Origin: an uncultured Saprospiraceae bacterium | GTDB taxonomy: Bacteria > Bacteroidota > Bacteroidia > Chitinophagales > Saprospiraceae | Direction of reading: 5' to 3' | NCBI GenBank assembly: GCA_937929945.1 | Contig: CALFUK010000097.1 | Location: 1 to 64,000, forward strand | Length of the DNA: 64,000 nucleotides | In this document: positions 8,893-64,000 of the stretch, one piece after another | Position numbering within the stretch: position 1 is the stretch's first letter | Layout: the number at the start of each line of letters is the position of its first letter | Translations under genes and position numbers: made by a program | The notes under the pieces: generated by a model | What the model was told of the DNA's origin: nothing | What the model saw: only the letters and a program-made list of their open reading frames with translations | The model's database searches: none

Positions 8893-10326
8893 TTATTGGT
8901 TGACGGGTGTCTTTGTGAATATGCCAGGATCTTCTCCCGGAGCATTTTCATTTGCATTGAGCTCTCCATCTGCATAGGGGTAGCGCTCTGGATGTACAGA
9001 TGCTGTAGCTGTATTTAATGGAAAAGGTACCAATACATCAGTATCGGACTTTCTCAATCGTCTGGCATCATCAAAGGGCATGTACTGACCAAATCCAGAT
9101 ACATATCTCTCTTCAACAATCTCTCTTAACAAGGCTCTGTCATCTGCGATTCCATCGGCATTCTCCATACCACCCGCTGCAAAATCTGCCGCTTCATAGG
9201 CCTCATAGAGATACTCCAGATCAGAGAAATTAGCATTCAGGCGACCACCACCATTGAGCCAAGCTCTGAATTCATTCAAGTGCTGTAAGCCTGTATCGAA
9301 GCCAGCAGTTCTGGCGCCAGCTTCTGCGAGAATGAGATGATTCTCTTCAAAACTGACTAATTGGTGAGCTTCTCCAGCTTCTATAATCCCTTGATTATTA
9401 CTGGCCGTATTTTCATCAATGGTGTAATACGCTGCTCTTGCAGTCTCTACCGTCTTAGCATTACCTCTGTATACCTCCGTCGAGTCTGCCAACATGAGAG
9501 ACAGATAACTTCCGACAGAACCAATATCACCAGCTCTCGAACCATCAAGGATCGTATAAAACAAATTTTGATCTCCCGTCTGAGAGTTTAAGGGTTCATA
9601 GCTCATGGTATTATCAGAACTGGAAATGCCACTCAGCGCAGCAGCATAAGCTGATGAGTAGTCACGCTTATACATGTGGTAGCGTGCCTTCAAGGTATGC
9701 GCCGCTTCCAGCCACTTTGCAGAATTACCATTGTAATAGATGTCTTGAGAAAGGCCTCTTCCAGGTGTCGAATTCAGATCACTGATGCCACTATCTAACA
9801 GACTGATCGCAGCATCTATCACAGTAATCTGCCCATCAAAGACCGGATCATCTATCTCTTCTTGATTCACTTGTGAGTAAGGTACATCTCCAAACAATGA
9901 GGCTGCTGTACCAATCGCATGTGCTTCCAAAACTTTAGATATCCCTTTTAATAGCGGATCAGCATCAGAAATATTAGCAATATGTCTGACCTGTGGGATC
10001 ACACTGATGTAAATTCGATTCCATGTCGTATTAGCCTCGGCTGTCGAGATATTATAGCCGTAAGCATTACCATAGACAGAAGCATAACCAATCAGCTGAC
10101 CGCTCCACATACCTGCCATTCGATTCGCATGTCCGGCTTGTGCCAGTGCATTAGCTAACTGTGCACCTGTCAAAAATAAAGCTGCATCTACCTCTTCTAT
10201 GACCAGACCATTTGGGTCATCATTGATATCCTCTACAATGCTCTCACAAGAGACCATCAGCAATGCTATCGCAAAGAATAATCCTTTATATATATTTTTT
10301 ATTAGATTCATTTTAAGCAAATTCAT
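8893..10326 (-). CDS. SusD/RagB-type outer-membrane lipoprotein
   Basis: This 477-residue protein is the surface lipoprotein partner of the upstream SusC-like channel and would bind an oligomeric nutrient before import. A lipoprotein signal ends in LLMVSC, with Cys near residue 27. The following INDDPNG and GAQLANALAQAG are typical of the SusD-like group with TPR-like helices. The pair is spaced 2 bp from the TonB receptor. The nearby Met codons at 10326 and 10311 are both possible starts. No glycoside hydrolase, peptidase or regulator is linked, so the substrate cannot be named. Confidence 0.9.
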   Translation of the reverse strand: MNLLKMNLIKNIYKGLFFAIALLMVSCESIVEDINDDPNGLVIEEVDAALFLTGAQLANALAQAGHANRMAGMWSGQLIGYASVYGNAYGYNISTAEANTTWNRIYISVIPQVRHIANISDADPLLKGISKVLEAHAIGTAASLFGDVPYSQVNQEEIDDPVFDGQITVIDAAISLLDSGISDLNSTPGRGLSQDIYYNGNSAKWLEAAHTLKARYHMYKRDYSSAYAAALSGISSSDNTMSYEPLNSQTGDQNLFYTILDGSRAGDIGSVGSYLSLMLADSTEVYRGNAKTVETARAAYYTIDENTASNNQGIIEAGEAHQLVSFEENHLILAEAGARTAGFDTGLQHLNEFRAWLNGGGRLNANFSDLEYLYEAYEAADFAAGGMENADGIADDRALLREIVEERYVSGFGQYMPFDDARRLRKSDTDVLVPFPLNTATASVHPERYPYADGELNANENAPGEDPGIFTKTPVNQ

Positions 10327-60875: not shown

Positions 60876-61778
60876 TTAGTTAGTACAGCCAGTGTAGTCC
60901 ACGGTCTCCATCATCCCGCCCAGCTCCACTGAGAATCCAGGATCAAGCAGGACGCAGTCTCCACCACTCAGGATGACCATAGAGTCAGCTTTGACTGTGC
61001 TCGCTGCTGATAGTCGTGCTGATGAGGCATACTGGTATGAGTCCAGGTCGATGTCTTCACCCAAGAAAATATTTTCTGCGCAGGCTGTCAATACTGGAAA
61101 ACTAACACTAGATATGGCATCCGGTATATTGACAATCGTGGGAACTGTCAACTGGTTGTCTGAGTAAAATTGTGACGGTAAAACGATATTAAGTGCTGCA
61201 CTCTCTACACCCGTAAGAAAGAATTCATTATCATCATTTTGGCTTTTTATGGAGTACTCATAGTCAAAGCTATAACCATCAGATGTCAATAGTAGATTCT
61301 GAGCTGTGGAAACAGATATGGTGTCTAAGCTCAAGTCAACATTAGAGGCCTCACTTTTGCTAAATGAATAAAGATTACTACCATAGTTTGCTGTAAGATG
61401 TTGTTCTCCGATACTATTAGAACTACCATTTTGATCAGTCATTACAGATACTGAAAATCCAAGCGGGATAGTGTATCCAATGTAATTTTTAATATCGATC
61501 ACTCCTGAGTGATCGATATAGGATGAGTAAGTGTATTTAGCTTCTGGCTCTCCATCTCCACTATTGATGCTGCAAAAAAACATGCTAATTTCAATGTCAA
61601 ACCCAGCAGTGGAAGACTGCAAAAACTCCACATCGGCGCAGTCGTCAGAAGCGATACCATTTCCATCATGAGGGTCTCCTACTGTCTCTGCAAAGAGGGT
61701 GAATGATTGTGCTATTTGAGCTGATGCCAGCTGCACAGCTGAGAGGAGTACGATAAAAAGTAAGCAAGAACGGCCCAT
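60876..61778 (-). CDS. Secreted protein with Bacteroidota C-terminal adhesin-like repeat
   Basis: A 300-residue protein with a signal peptide (ends QLASAQ), strand-rich body, and a C-terminal region that matches a recurring extracellular unit of Bacteroidota: SSARLSAASTVKADSMVILS then GDCVLLDPGFSVELGGMMET and a final Cys. In this unit the phrases x-G-x-x-V-x-L-x-P-G-F are typical. It is probably exported to the surface; the function is unknown. Confidence 0.65.
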   Translation of the reverse strand: MGRSCLLFIVLLSAVQLASAQIAQSFTLFAETVGDPHDGNGIASDDCADVEFLQSSTAGFDIEISMFFCSINSGDGEPEAKYTYSSYIDHSGVIDIKNYIGYTIPLGFSVSVMTDQNGSSNSIGEQHLTANYGSNLYSFSKSEASNVDLSLDTISVSTAQNLLLTSDGYSFDYEYSIKSQNDDNEFFLTGVESAALNIVLPSQFYSDNQLTVPTIVNIPDAISSVSFPVLTACAENIFLGEDIDLDSYQYASSARLSAASTVKADSMVILSGGDCVLLDPGFSVELGGMMETVDYTGCTN

Positions 61779-62003: not shown

Positions 62004-62041
62004 AAAAAAAGCGAGAATCAAATCTGTATTCGACTCCCGCT
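62004..62041 (-). terminator. Terminator of small transcription unit 1
   Basis: On the minus strand AGCGGGAGTC (62032-62041) and GATTCTCGCT (62010-62019) pair over 10 bp with two G-T pairs, around a 12-nt loop, followed by seven T. The pairing works only on this strand without mismatches, which fixes the orientation. Confidence 0.9.
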
Positions 62042-62160
62042 GGACGTTAGACTACTTGGTGTGTGTTTTTAATATGTTTGTTTCAGATGTAAAATAGAAG
62101 TCAGAAAGTCGAAGCCTTACGTTGGTTGGGCGTGCAGTTCAACTCAATGTTTCTGTCTTA
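62004..62160 (-). ncRNA. Putative LytTR-controlled small RNA 1
   Basis: From a start predicted about 6-7 bp after the -7 box (62166-62173) to the terminator at 62004, the transcript would be about 155 nt. It contains no ATG before the terminator. The 3' part has an unpaired A/C-rich segment with TTAAAAACACAC, shared with unit 2, placed just before the terminator hairpin, a common layout for base-pairing small RNAs. Expression is inferred from sequence. Confidence 0.55.
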
Positions 62161-62165
62161 CGATG

Positions 62166-62257
62166 TAAATATAATGCTGAATGCAGCGGATAAAAAGGGT
62201 CATCCGACGAACGGCAGGATTTAGGCATGAAGCGGTCAGTATTGAGGTATAAGCGGT
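62166..62257 (-). promoter_or_regulatory. LytTR-like promoter of small unit 1
   Basis: On the minus strand: ACCGCTTA (62250-62257), 13 bp, ACCGCTTC (62229-62236); then the conserved box GTCGGATG (62201-62208); 27 bp; then TATATTTA (62166-62173), close to TAnnTTTG. The direct repeat with 13-bp spacer equals the site described for E. coli BtsR/YehT (ACCGCTCA-type, N13; from memory), a LytTR regulator. The same arrangement recurs at 62575-62666. Confidence 0.7.
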
Positions 62258-62280
62258 AAGTTGGACAGCTGTAAAAGCTA

Positions 62281-62342
62281 TTTTTTTTGCAGAGTATGGC
62301 TGAATTACAGCAATCAGTATAAGGCATATTGCAAAAAAAAAA
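62281..62342. repeat. Long inverted repeat with 8-T/8-A arms between the small units
   Basis: TTTTTTTTGCA near 62281-62291 and TGCAAAAAAAA near 62330-62340 form arms of about 11 bp around 38 bp that include GCTG-AATTA-CAGC. It overlaps the T run of terminator 2 on the minus strand and may also stop transcription from the plus strand. Confidence 0.5.
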
Positions 62343-62365
62343 GAGCCAAATTTTCATTTGACTCT
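62333..62365 (-). terminator. Terminator of small transcription unit 2
   Basis: On the minus strand AGAGTCAAAT (62356-62365), GAAA loop, ATTTGGCTCT (62342-62351): 10 bp with one G-T pair, followed by about ten T. Confidence 0.92.
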
Positions 62366-62568
62366 GATAGAAACTGAGAATATTTAGATGTGTGTTAGTG
62401 TAATTGTGTTTTTAAATTGGCCATCTGTGTTTTACTACAGCGTGTTTAAAAAAGTGGAAGCTGGCCTTTTAAGTCGGATTCATTAAGACCGAATTAATTT
62501 TCTTAATTTCAAAGAGAATGGATCAACTCTGATTCAATTTCCTTAGAGTGAATCCCCATAACTAATTG
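62333..62568 (-). ncRNA. Putative LytTR-controlled small RNA 2
   Basis: From a start about 7 bp after the -7 box (62575-62582) to the terminator the transcript would be about 235 nt. It holds one 16-codon frame starting near 62559 (MGIHSKEIESELIHSL), not shared by unit 1, so it may be non-coding. GATTC/GAATC and ACTCT/AGAGT arms suggest a 5' hairpin. The segment before the terminator has TTTAAAAACACAATTACACT, partly shared with unit 1. Confidence 0.5.
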
Positions 62569-62574
62569 TACAAT

Positions 62575-62666
62575 CAAATATATAGATAAGCTTACGCTGG
62601 AACAATGACCATCCGACGAGTGGCAGTATTTAGCATACTTTCGGTCAGTATGAGGGAATGAGCGGT
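62575..62666 (-). promoter_or_regulatory. LytTR-like promoter of small unit 2
   Basis: On the minus strand: ACCGCTCA (62659-62666), 13 bp, ACCGAAAG (62638-62645); GTCGGATG (62610-62617); 27 bp; TATATTTG (62575-62582), a perfect TAnnTTTG. Distances from repeat to -7 box equal those of unit 1. The first arm lies 14 bp past the stop of the LytTR regulator gene. Confidence 0.75.
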
Positions 62667-62679
62667 AAATGAATATGGG

Positions 62680-63450
62680 CTATAACGTCGTTATTTTCTC
62701 TAAAAATTCATCTTTTCTTCTTCTGGCCAGCGGGATAGCCATATTATTTTCTAAGATGATCGAGCCGTCCTTTTGGTATTGCTTGATTTTTGATAGGTTT
62801 ATTAGGTAAGATCGATGTGCTAAAAAGAAGCCACATTTTTCTAAAATCTTTGCGAATTCACCCACATTATAGGAGCTAAATACATGTTCGCCTTCACTCA
62901 TGATGACCTTGGTGTATCTTTTTTGACCCTCACAGGCTATGATCTTATCTAGTCTGACGAAATCGATTCCATTGACCGTAGGAATGCCTATTTTCTTTTG
63001 TTGATGATGATTCGCCTGAAGATTGTCCAGTAGAATCTCGTAGTGAGTTTTGACATGCTTATAGTGTACCTGGTCTACCACTTTGCCTACTGCCTGAATC
63101 AGACTATCATCCGAGATGGGCTTCATGATGTAGTCAGAGGCAGAAATTTTGAATGCGTCGATCGCATACTCATCATAGCCTGTGACGAAGATGACATTAA
63201 AGTCTCTCTTAGAGCAGGACTCTAATAATTCAAAGCCATTCAGATGGGGCATCTGTATATCTAAAAACAGTAAGTCTGGAGATTTTTCCTCGACGGCAGT
63301 CAGCGCTAATCTTGGGTCTTGAAAGATATGGGAGACATTTACCTGAGGTGTCAGCTCTTCTAGCATACTCTTTAGCAGTATACCTGCCTTAGTCTCATCA
63401 TCTACGATGATAGCCTCGATTTTAGTATCGATAATACTTGGAGTTGTCAT
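62680..63450 (-). CDS. LytTR-family response regulator
   Basis: A 256-residue two-component regulator. Receiver domain: Asp17-Asp18 (IVDDE), phosphorylation site Asp64 (FLDIQMPHLNG), Lys110 (YIMKPIS). A LytTR DNA-binding domain spans about 155-250 (GIDFVRLDKIIACEGQKRYT, FFLAHRSYLINLSKIKQY, IPLARRRKDEF). The gene follows its kinase by 42 bp. LytTR proteins bind direct repeats about 21 bp apart; matching sites lie just downstream of this gene, at the promoters of two small units. Confidence 0.95.
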   Translation of the reverse strand: MTTPSIIDTKIEAIIVDDETKAGILLKSMLEELTPQVNVSHIFQDPRLALTAVEEKSPDLLFLDIQMPHLNGFELLESCSKRDFNVIFVTGYDEYAIDAFKISASDYIMKPISDDSLIQAVGKVVDQVHYKHVKTHYEILLDNLQANHHQQKKIGIPTVNGIDFVRLDKIIACEGQKRYTKVIMSEGEHVFSSYNVGEFAKILEKCGFFLAHRSYLINLSKIKQYQKDGSIILENNMAIPLARRRKDEFLEKITTL

Positions 63451-63492: not shown

Positions 63493-64000
63493 TTATGTTA
63501 GTTTAACTTTCACTGAGGTGCCCAATATCTCCCCGGTGTCTGAGGTGTGATCTTCATAATGTATGAGCTGGTCAATATCCGCATTGTTTTGGCTGATTTC
63601 TATTCTCTCTTTGATGATCTCAGTCGCTCTGGATTTATGCTTTTTGCGCTCTTGCTGGTTTCTGATGGCTGCTGCGCTCCGACCGATACCATTGTCTGAT
63701 ATCCTGCATATGACTCCTTGCTGATCATCCTCGGAGAATCGGATGTCTATTTTTCCCGATCGATTTTCTAAATGGGAGAAGCCGTGTACGATAGAATTCT
63801 CTACGAATGGCTGGATGATCATGGGCGGGACTTTGGTCAGACTATCTATTTTCGACTCGATGTGAAAGCTAAACTTATCTTCAAAGCGGAGCTGCTCTAA
63901 TTCGAGATAGAGTGTCAATAACTCTATTTCATCCGTGATGGTGATGGTCTCATTTCTCGAGGATTCGAGGAAGAGCCGCATGAGTTTTGAAAATTTTGAC
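63493..64000 (-). CDS. LytS-type histidine kinase, C-terminal part (cut by window edge)
   Basis: The frame is open through the window edge; the Met at 63981 is internal. Visible residues belong to the His_kinase/HATPase unit of LytS/YehU kinases: SKFSKLMRLFLESSRNETI, LELEQLRFEDKF, PPMIIQPFVENSIVHGF (N box), and ISDNGIGRSAA. The sensor part and histidine lie outside. It is the cognate kinase of the LytTR regulator 42 bp downstream. Confidence 0.9.
   Translation of the reverse strand, partial: SKFSKLMRLFLESSRNETITITDEIELLTLYLELEQLRFEDKFSFHIESKIDSLTKVPPMIIQPFVENSIVHGFSHLENRSGKIDIRFSEDDQQGVICRISDNGIGRSAAAIRNQQERKKHKSRATEIIKERIEISQNNADIDQLIHYEDHTSDTGEILGTSVKVKLT

Follow-up and report, generated by a model that had tools for sequence, protein, structure and literature searches.

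Tandem candidate small RNA genes with LytTR-type promoters behind a kinase–regulator pair of an uncultured Saprospiraceae bacterium

The end of the window, which here means the whole stretch of 64,000 nucleotides that was analysed, raises the question of what occupies the long space behind a sensor kinase gene and a LytTR response regulator gene. The kinase has 1010 residues in total and combines a propeller repeat with a LytS-type kinase domain (Pfam Reg_prop 9e-6 and His_kinase 9e-23). The regulator gene is separated from the next minus-strand gene by 901 bp (62679–61779), and not by the 880 bp given in a preliminary description of the locus. The 300-residue product of this next gene has a signal-peptide-like start by eye, and a Pfam search with it returned no match. 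Ahead of the kinase gene, at 9599–12326 of L192 (G000:C97), lie glgC- and glgA-type genes (Pfam), followed by a 72-bp gap; these neighbours may hint at a carbon-storage signal for the kinase. The preliminary description placed two tandem small RNA-like units in the space, and the overall observation is confirmed by two minus-strand promoter copies and their terminators (Table 1). A 72-residue open frame in the same space (62139–62357, minus strand) begins within terminator 2 and crosses the unit 1 promoter; it was rejected as a gene and is probably a chance frame.

Table 1. Features of the locus in the order of the minus strand; transcripts and promoter positions are predicted.
Feature	Position	Strand	Details
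Sensor kinase gene, 3′ part	63493..64000	-	continues beyond the window end; ORF in L192
Response regulator gene	62680..63450	-	256 aa; receiver and LytTR DNA-binding domains; Pfam Response_reg 1e-21, LytTR 2e-14
Unit 2 LytTR half-site 1, ACCGCTCAT	62658..62666	-	G at about −93; 8/9 consensus positions
Unit 2 LytTR half-site 2, ACCGAAAGT	62637..62645	-	G at about −72; 7/9 positions
Unit 2 LytTR half-site 3, GCCACTCGT	62616..62624	-	about −51; 6/9 positions
Unit 2 −7 box, TATATTTG	62575..62582	-	exact TAnnTTTG
Unit 2, predicted RNA of ~238 nt	62333..62570	-	predicted from −7 box and terminator
16-codon ATG frame in unit 2, MGIHSKEIESELIHSL	62509..62559	-	ORF reading
TTAAAAACACA in unit 2	62405..62415	-	within a 46-nt G-free stretch (43/2000 shuffles as long)
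Unit 2 intrinsic terminator	62333..62365	-	10 pairs (62365–62342), T's to 62333
Unit 1 LytTR half-site 1, ACCGCTTAT	62249..62257	-	G at about −93; 8/9 positions
Unit 1 LytTR half-site 2, ACCGCTTCA	62228..62236	-	G at about −72; 6/9 positions
Unit 1 LytTR half-site 3, GCCGTTCGT	62207..62215	-	G at about −51; 8/9 positions
Unit 1 −7 box, TATATTTA	62166..62173	-	TAnnTTTG except last base
Unit 1, predicted RNA of ~158 nt	62004..62161	-	no ATG; 5′ stem, unpaired A/C-rich stretch, terminator
TTAAAAACACA in unit 1	62062..62072	-	within a 28-nt G-free stretch (243/2000 shuffles as long: not remarkable)
Unit 1 intrinsic terminator	62004..62041	-	14 pairs (62041–62010), T's to 62004
Next gene on the strand	60876..61778	-	300 aa

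The strongest feature that the units have in common is the promoter module, of which the two copies lie 409 bp apart with repeat blocks that are 79% and 81% identical. Their local alignment scores 50, compared with 15.3 ± 2.2 in shuffles, and none of 500 shuffles equals it; the matching promoter regions noted before are thus real. Each module contains three LytTR-type half-sites with an exact 21-bp period, and the −7 box lies 41 nt past the CC of the third. The half-sites were scored against [TA][AC][CA]GTTN[AG][TG], the LytTR consensus that Nikolskaya and Galperin are said to have given. A LytTR promoter is expected to carry at least two direct repeats of ~9 bp near this consensus, and three were found for each unit. 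They are separated by 12 bp throughout, and 10 bp lie between the end of the last repeat and the −33 position, a distance that presupposes a 19-bp spacer. Repeats of LytTR regulatory systems are 11–13 bp apart, mostly 12, and lie ~10 bp upstream of the −35/−33 region, and a CCACTT-type repeat is also among those tabulated (excerpts of PMC6193735). In Flavobacterium psychrophilum, TAnnTTTG spans −12 to −5 (excerpts of PMC9723704), so the predicted +1 lies near 62570 and 62161 and the half-site G near −51, −72 and −93. A sigma-70-type promoter scan, which does not cover Bacteroidota promoters, found nothing at either unit, and the own genome shows no enrichment of triple CCGNT sites when one mismatch is allowed (15 vs 35 in the control). 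The preliminary description, which overlooked the half-sites, had proposed that the LytTR protein drives the units; the triple sites now supply a sequence-level reason for such control and would link the units to the kinase and LytTR regulator encoded next to them.

Both intrinsic terminators that had been claimed are present with their T-runs. With +1 placed 5 nt past the −7 box, transcripts of 158 and 238 nt are predicted; the earlier values were ~155 and 235 nt. A loose terminator scan of 4 kb gave four terminator-like sites compared with 1.9 ± 1.2 in shuffles, which is modest evidence when taken alone. Folding, begun one base inside the stated +1, gave unit 1 a fold that beats 198 of 200 shuffles (z −2.5); unit 2 has no excess stability (z −1.1; 34 of 200 shuffles as good). 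Outside the promoters, the sole sequence common to both units is the 11-mer TTAAAAACACA. Its positions had been reported correctly (62072–62062 and 62415–62405), but 22 of 500 shuffled pairs match such a shared segment. The genome (5.07 Mb) contains its exact complement at two places, which are the opposite strands of the units themselves (five matches in the reversed control), so this assembly holds no perfect 11-nt target. The 11-mer was therefore rejected as a perfect pairing seed, and its proposed role as a shared pairing segment is doubtful. Rfam 15 returned no family at the gathering score for the window; with permissive settings, the units produced two sub-threshold matches on the opposite strand, and BLAST found no further copies of the units in the own genome.

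Short frames within the units suggest another reading, namely that they are mRNAs for very small peptides under LytTR control, with 16 codons in unit 2 and non-ATG starts in unit 1. The 16-codon frame of unit 2 exists as described, yet it is not the only one, since further ATG frames of nine and four codons and one opening inside the terminator are present. Bacteroidota do without Shine–Dalgarno sequences (excerpts of PMC6847099), and the slot behind the boxes holds small frames of about 70–95 residues in five related loci (L195, L196, L200, L205 and L334). However, unit 1 has no ATG, as previously stated, and its longest non-ATG frame has 13 codons. Frames of such length are expected by chance, and the 298 family genomes gave no homologues by which frame conservation could be judged. 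We regard peptide-coding units as very unlikely.

Homology searches with the units themselves returned little. Besides the window, BLAST against the 298 family genomes returned four short matches (27–41 nt, E 3e-4 to 8e-4), none of them in the two congeneric genomes, and no homologues of the transcribed parts. Three correspond to the unit 2 terminator region (L332, L333 and G248); L332 and L333 were rejected as related loci because they are terminator matches in unrelated settings. The fourth corresponds to the unit 1 half-sites (L334, G243:C49), where a homologous triple module ACCGCTTAC / ACCGCTTAC / GCCACTCTC with a 21-bp period precedes a small LuxR-like HTH frame (~70 residues) and then a secreted-type gene; no LytTR gene was found within the 3 kb examined around it. 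Nine non-coding units from the window and relatives were also compared in 36 pairs with a cut of 2 in 100 shuffles. Two pairs reach it: T1/T2 through the 11-mer (2/100), and L158/L204 (0/100). L158 (G022) and L204 (G142) come from two species of one genus and have CACCCATTRACGCGCTTTCTAT in common directly before the terminator, which is the one case among such units of a visibly conserved RNA part.

To place the locus among its relatives, we surveyed the regions behind all 73 best regulator matches (to E 4e-52). One locus was too short and another has two regulators, so that 72 loci yielded 73 downstream regions. An exact CCGNT pair, 21 or 22 bp apart and at most 300 nt after the regulator, occurs in 19 of the 73 regions and in none of 73 reversed controls; the variant half-sites of unit 2 keep the window out of this count. 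Among 60 of the loci there are 12 positives, and by reading a non-coding stretch with a terminator-like hairpin follows in four of these (L198, L204, L231 and L245) and a gene in eight (L195, L196, L200, L205, L215, L221, L228 and L229). The other 13 loci add seven positives: L173, L158, L142 and L152 are non-coding and terminator-ended, and L138, L162 and L165 are coding. Beyond the 19, L172 is non-coding and L139 coding. Protein genes behind boxes (11/19) are thus at least as common as RNA-like units, and the slot after the LytTR pair appears to be often a LytTR target whose contents vary. An initial pattern scan of the 298 genomes, in which the control columns were of similar size by eye, looked dominated by chance and served only for choosing loci.

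Individual relatives show both kinds of content. In L003 (G237:C241, regulator 42% identical), two perfect LytTR repeats begin 4 bp past the regulator stop and are followed by TATATTTA and, ~120 nt on, by a terminator. The congener G002 has the best regulator homologue (59% identical), with a receiver/LuxR-type regulator gene 138 bp downstream of it and no LytTR boxes there. The next-best, G282 (48%; L195, G282:C161), is of the same genus as G243 and has a small LuxR-like HTH frame behind its boxes; as in L334, this frame of ~70 residues is followed by a secreted-type gene. Since the nearest promoter relatives drive proteins, they count against a non-coding output as the ancestral state. The preliminary description would have been refuted by relatives that encode conserved small proteins here or lack promoter–terminator pairs, and on this point the outcome is mixed: the slot is non-coding in L173/L003, L172, L158, L204, L142 and L152, and it holds proteins in L138, L139, L165, L221 and L228 and LuxR-type genes in the nearest relatives.

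Several further arrangements were observed during the survey. In the first 350 nt past the regulator, L196 and L200 encode similar proteins of ~94 residues (MTVxSIxIINF...FFNVF) behind LytTR boxes. In L154 and L155 (G082:C55 and G235:C283), CCGTT box pairs precede a conserved short unit, GCATTTGCA ... CACTATTAGAGATT ... GGCGCA(A/G)TTTCG ... T-run, which has no match in Rfam. In L151 (G175:C216), two tandem short units ~225 nt apart have similar GGGGA(A/G)AG...CTTTCTCC terminators, and the first of them sits behind a box pair. Finally, L178, L179, L180, L181 and L182, from several genera, have CCCGTTCGG-12-CCCGTTCGGCAAG-like repeats ahead of a TAnnTTTG box, which looks like another conserved regulated promoter.

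The secreted-type genes bear on a second alternative, in which unit 2 is the 3′ UTR of the kinase–regulator mRNA with an internal autoregulated promoter, unit 1 is an attenuator leader of the 61778 gene, and neither acts in trans. A search from the regulator stop to unit 2 gave no terminator, and the one at 62365, the first downstream of the regulator gene, therefore probably also serves the operon. The gene at 61778 begins 225 nt past the end of unit 1 on the same strand and by eye has no clear promoter of its own. Behind the pair in L138, L139, L165, L221 and L228, a promoter with LytTR boxes stands ahead of a gene whose start is of the secreted type. Against these points, two complete promoter modules with terminators would be superfluous for a leader, unit 2 would be left unexplained, and the one minimum-energy fold shows no competing antiterminator for terminator 1. 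Furthermore, the triple promoter elsewhere precedes stand-alone short RNAs, as set out below. We consider the leader arrangement unlikely.

A joint scan for the triple geometry together with the −7 box (half-sites at 41/62/83 nt or one less) gave 24 occurrences in 328 loci (1.83 Mb including overlaps) and none in the reversed sequence. By reading, 18 of the 24 precede short terminator-ended non-coding units: 12 RNAs with the core described in the next paragraph, three diverged copies of them (L287, L288 and L300), the non-coding unit behind the kinase–regulator pair of L172, and the two units of the window. The other matches are simple repeats (L114 and L123) or precede genes or are ambiguous (L126, L167, L183 and L215). 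This set is biased, because many loci were chosen for carrying the core, although this does not apply to L172 or the window units; L334 stands outside the count of 24. The exact geometry of the window modules recurs before other terminator-ended non-coding units beside LytTR systems.

The core in question, TTTTCTCATAGTATGTTT with at most one mismatch, occurs in 141 of the 298 Saprospiraceae genomes and in 62 of 112 genera, compared with seven matches in reversed controls over the 298 genomes. Copies are often tandem, two or more, some 170–470 bp apart, and some one-mismatch matches are chance ones inside genes (G278:C100, L280/L302). The elements of this family, modelled as R1, are mostly 60–75 nt long and consist of a TTTTCTCATAGTATG core, a hairpin with a C/U-rich loop (often CCTCC or CCCTTC) and a terminator. 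Core, G(T/C)AGG-type hairpin arm and T-run are combined in 59 distinct elements, and an alignment of 48 of these has double compensatory changes at four of eight hairpin pairs. Rfam gave no match at the gathering score for 14 related loci, five of them with the core. A covariance search of 395 genomes of the phylum, with strict filters and 12 candidates scored per genome among the matches listed, gave one match, itself a family member. The R1 loci include L146, L147, L160, L169, L176 and most of L270–L299 and L300–L319, and by eye their clusters contain three recurring sibling types.

In setting and promoter, the R1 family resembles the window units. Of 20 flanked R1 clusters, 13 follow a same-strand LytS-type kinase gene at a distance of 100 to ~310 nt, as called with a profile from three kinases and confirmed by Pfam in one of the 13 (TPR repeats); a LytTR regulator gene is in the same stretch in 10 of these. 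Six of the remaining seven lie elsewhere, and one (L302) is a chance match. The hairpin arm is present in 57 of 63 R1 elements, and in 48 of the 57 it is accompanied by a −7-like box (TAnnTTTR, with TAnnTTG and TAnnCTTG as variants). Upstream of the box in these 48, CC(A/G)YT matches 36 times at 83 nt, 33 times at 62 nt and 24 times at 41 nt, with a tolerance of 1 nt, compared with at most four at any offset in the reversed control. The distances of 41, 62 and 83 nt are exactly those of the half-sites of the window units. Tandem copies, intrinsic terminators and a frequent place beside LytTR systems are likewise common to both, whereas their RNA sequences are not: they are related through their promoters and their setting. 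The window units were rejected as R1 members, with no model match in the window; in the own genome the best match of the model has 25 bits (E 0.18), and the R1-associated kinase of ~640 residues has no full-length homologue there, matches covering the kinase part only.

These comparisons also bear on the possibility that the window modules are an operator region that was duplicated and has decayed, with terminators that arose by chance and no functional transcript. The transcribed parts do lack homologues, and the unit bodies are unrelated save for the 11-mer. However, the spacing of half-sites and −7 box is identical to the base in both copies and equals that of the conserved R1 family, and we take decay to be highly improbable. 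A further alternative overlaps our preferred reading as far as the RNAs are concerned and differs in the regulator: the units would be RNA genes, but the half-sites would serve another LytTR regulator, the link to the neighbour being positional only. The own genome has 27 matches to the regulator (E up to 1e-3, itself included), half-sites are similar among LytTR family members, and the triple module of L334 has no LytTR gene in the 3 kb examined. Adjacency nevertheless recurs in relatives, in 19 of 73 regulator regions and 13 of 20 R1 clusters, which makes control by another LytTR regulator unlikely.

We propose, with a probability of roughly 0.7, that the two units are tandem small RNA genes that form all or part of the output of the upstream kinase/LytTR-regulator pair. 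On a signal, the kinase would phosphorylate the regulator, which would bind as a row of subunits to the three half-sites on one DNA face (every 21 bp, the last at about −51) and recruit RNA polymerase at each promoter. RNAs of ~238 and ~158 nt would then be made, ending at the intrinsic terminators. Transcription, the identity of the regulator and the sign of control are inferred from these sequence elements. The mode of action and the targets are speculative: the RNAs might act in trans on translation or stability of target mRNAs via the unpaired G-poor stretches before the terminators. Counting against this proposal, the half-sites are degenerate, matching the consensus at only 6 to 8 of 9 positions, and are weaker than the L003 boxes (9/9 twice). 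A broader generalization, to which we give slightly less than an even chance, is that LytTR systems in Saprospiraceae commonly output small RNAs, with one widespread system carrying a conserved tandem set behind its kinase gene and others, the window's included, having evolved private pairs downstream of the same three-half-site promoter, so that the promoter module is conserved and not the RNA. If true, a common regulator type of the phylum would have RNA outputs that are partly recognizable from promoter geometry, and this geometry would offer a route to sRNAs that lack sequence conservation. A candidate RNA family that is present in roughly half of the genomes sampled from Saprospiraceae, a large environmental family, would also become directly testable.

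Searches of the open-licence literature found no report of LytTR-driven sRNAs in Bacteroidota and no sRNA work on Saprospiraceae two-component systems. For comparison with known systems, VirR is a LytTR-type regulator, the ComE-like family of the FasBCA regulator is of the AgrA/LytTR type, and the RNA genes of AgrCA and VirSR are not known to be tandem copies. As in the sRNA-output systems Fas, Agr, Vir and Rga, a kinase and a LytTR regulator are present at the locus (Pfam). In position, the SpoZ promoter of Clostridioides difficile is the closest match to the window half-sites. There, the VirR-like RgaR drives the sRNA SpoZ, and the authors conclude that G-51 and G-72 of the repeats are both needed for binding (excerpts of PMC10602386); the half-sites of the window carry G near these two positions, −51 and −72. 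The RgaS–RgaR/SpoZ system differs in that two half-sites are shown instead of three, the kinase and regulator genes are non-contiguous, a single sRNA is made and the promoter is of the Firmicutes type. In group A Streptococcus, the four-gene FasBCA/FasX locus encodes sensor-kinase-like proteins, a ComE-like-family regulator and an sRNA induced by this regulator (excerpts of PMC12675982). This locus, likened to the window by description and not by sequence, differs in having one RNA and a two-part site. AgrA of Staphylococcus aureus binds direct repeats centred near −60 (excerpts of PMC4227749), and both AgrCA (RNAIII) and Clostridium perfringens VirSR (VR-RNA, VirT and VirU) have regulatory RNA outputs (excerpts of PMC10602386), with two half-sites and in another phylum. 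Within Bacteroides, LytTR regulatory systems have direct repeats ahead of a TATCTTTG promoter, but autoregulation of their own operon is proposed, and the excerpted text names no small RNA or sRNA (PMC6193735). The claim of a new kind of two-component output was therefore too strong, given the Firmicutes precedents RNAIII, VR-RNA, SpoZ and FasX. The novelty here lies in the phylum, in the tandem form with triple boxes and in the RNAs themselves, and the locus looks like a tandem Bacteroidota variant of these systems.
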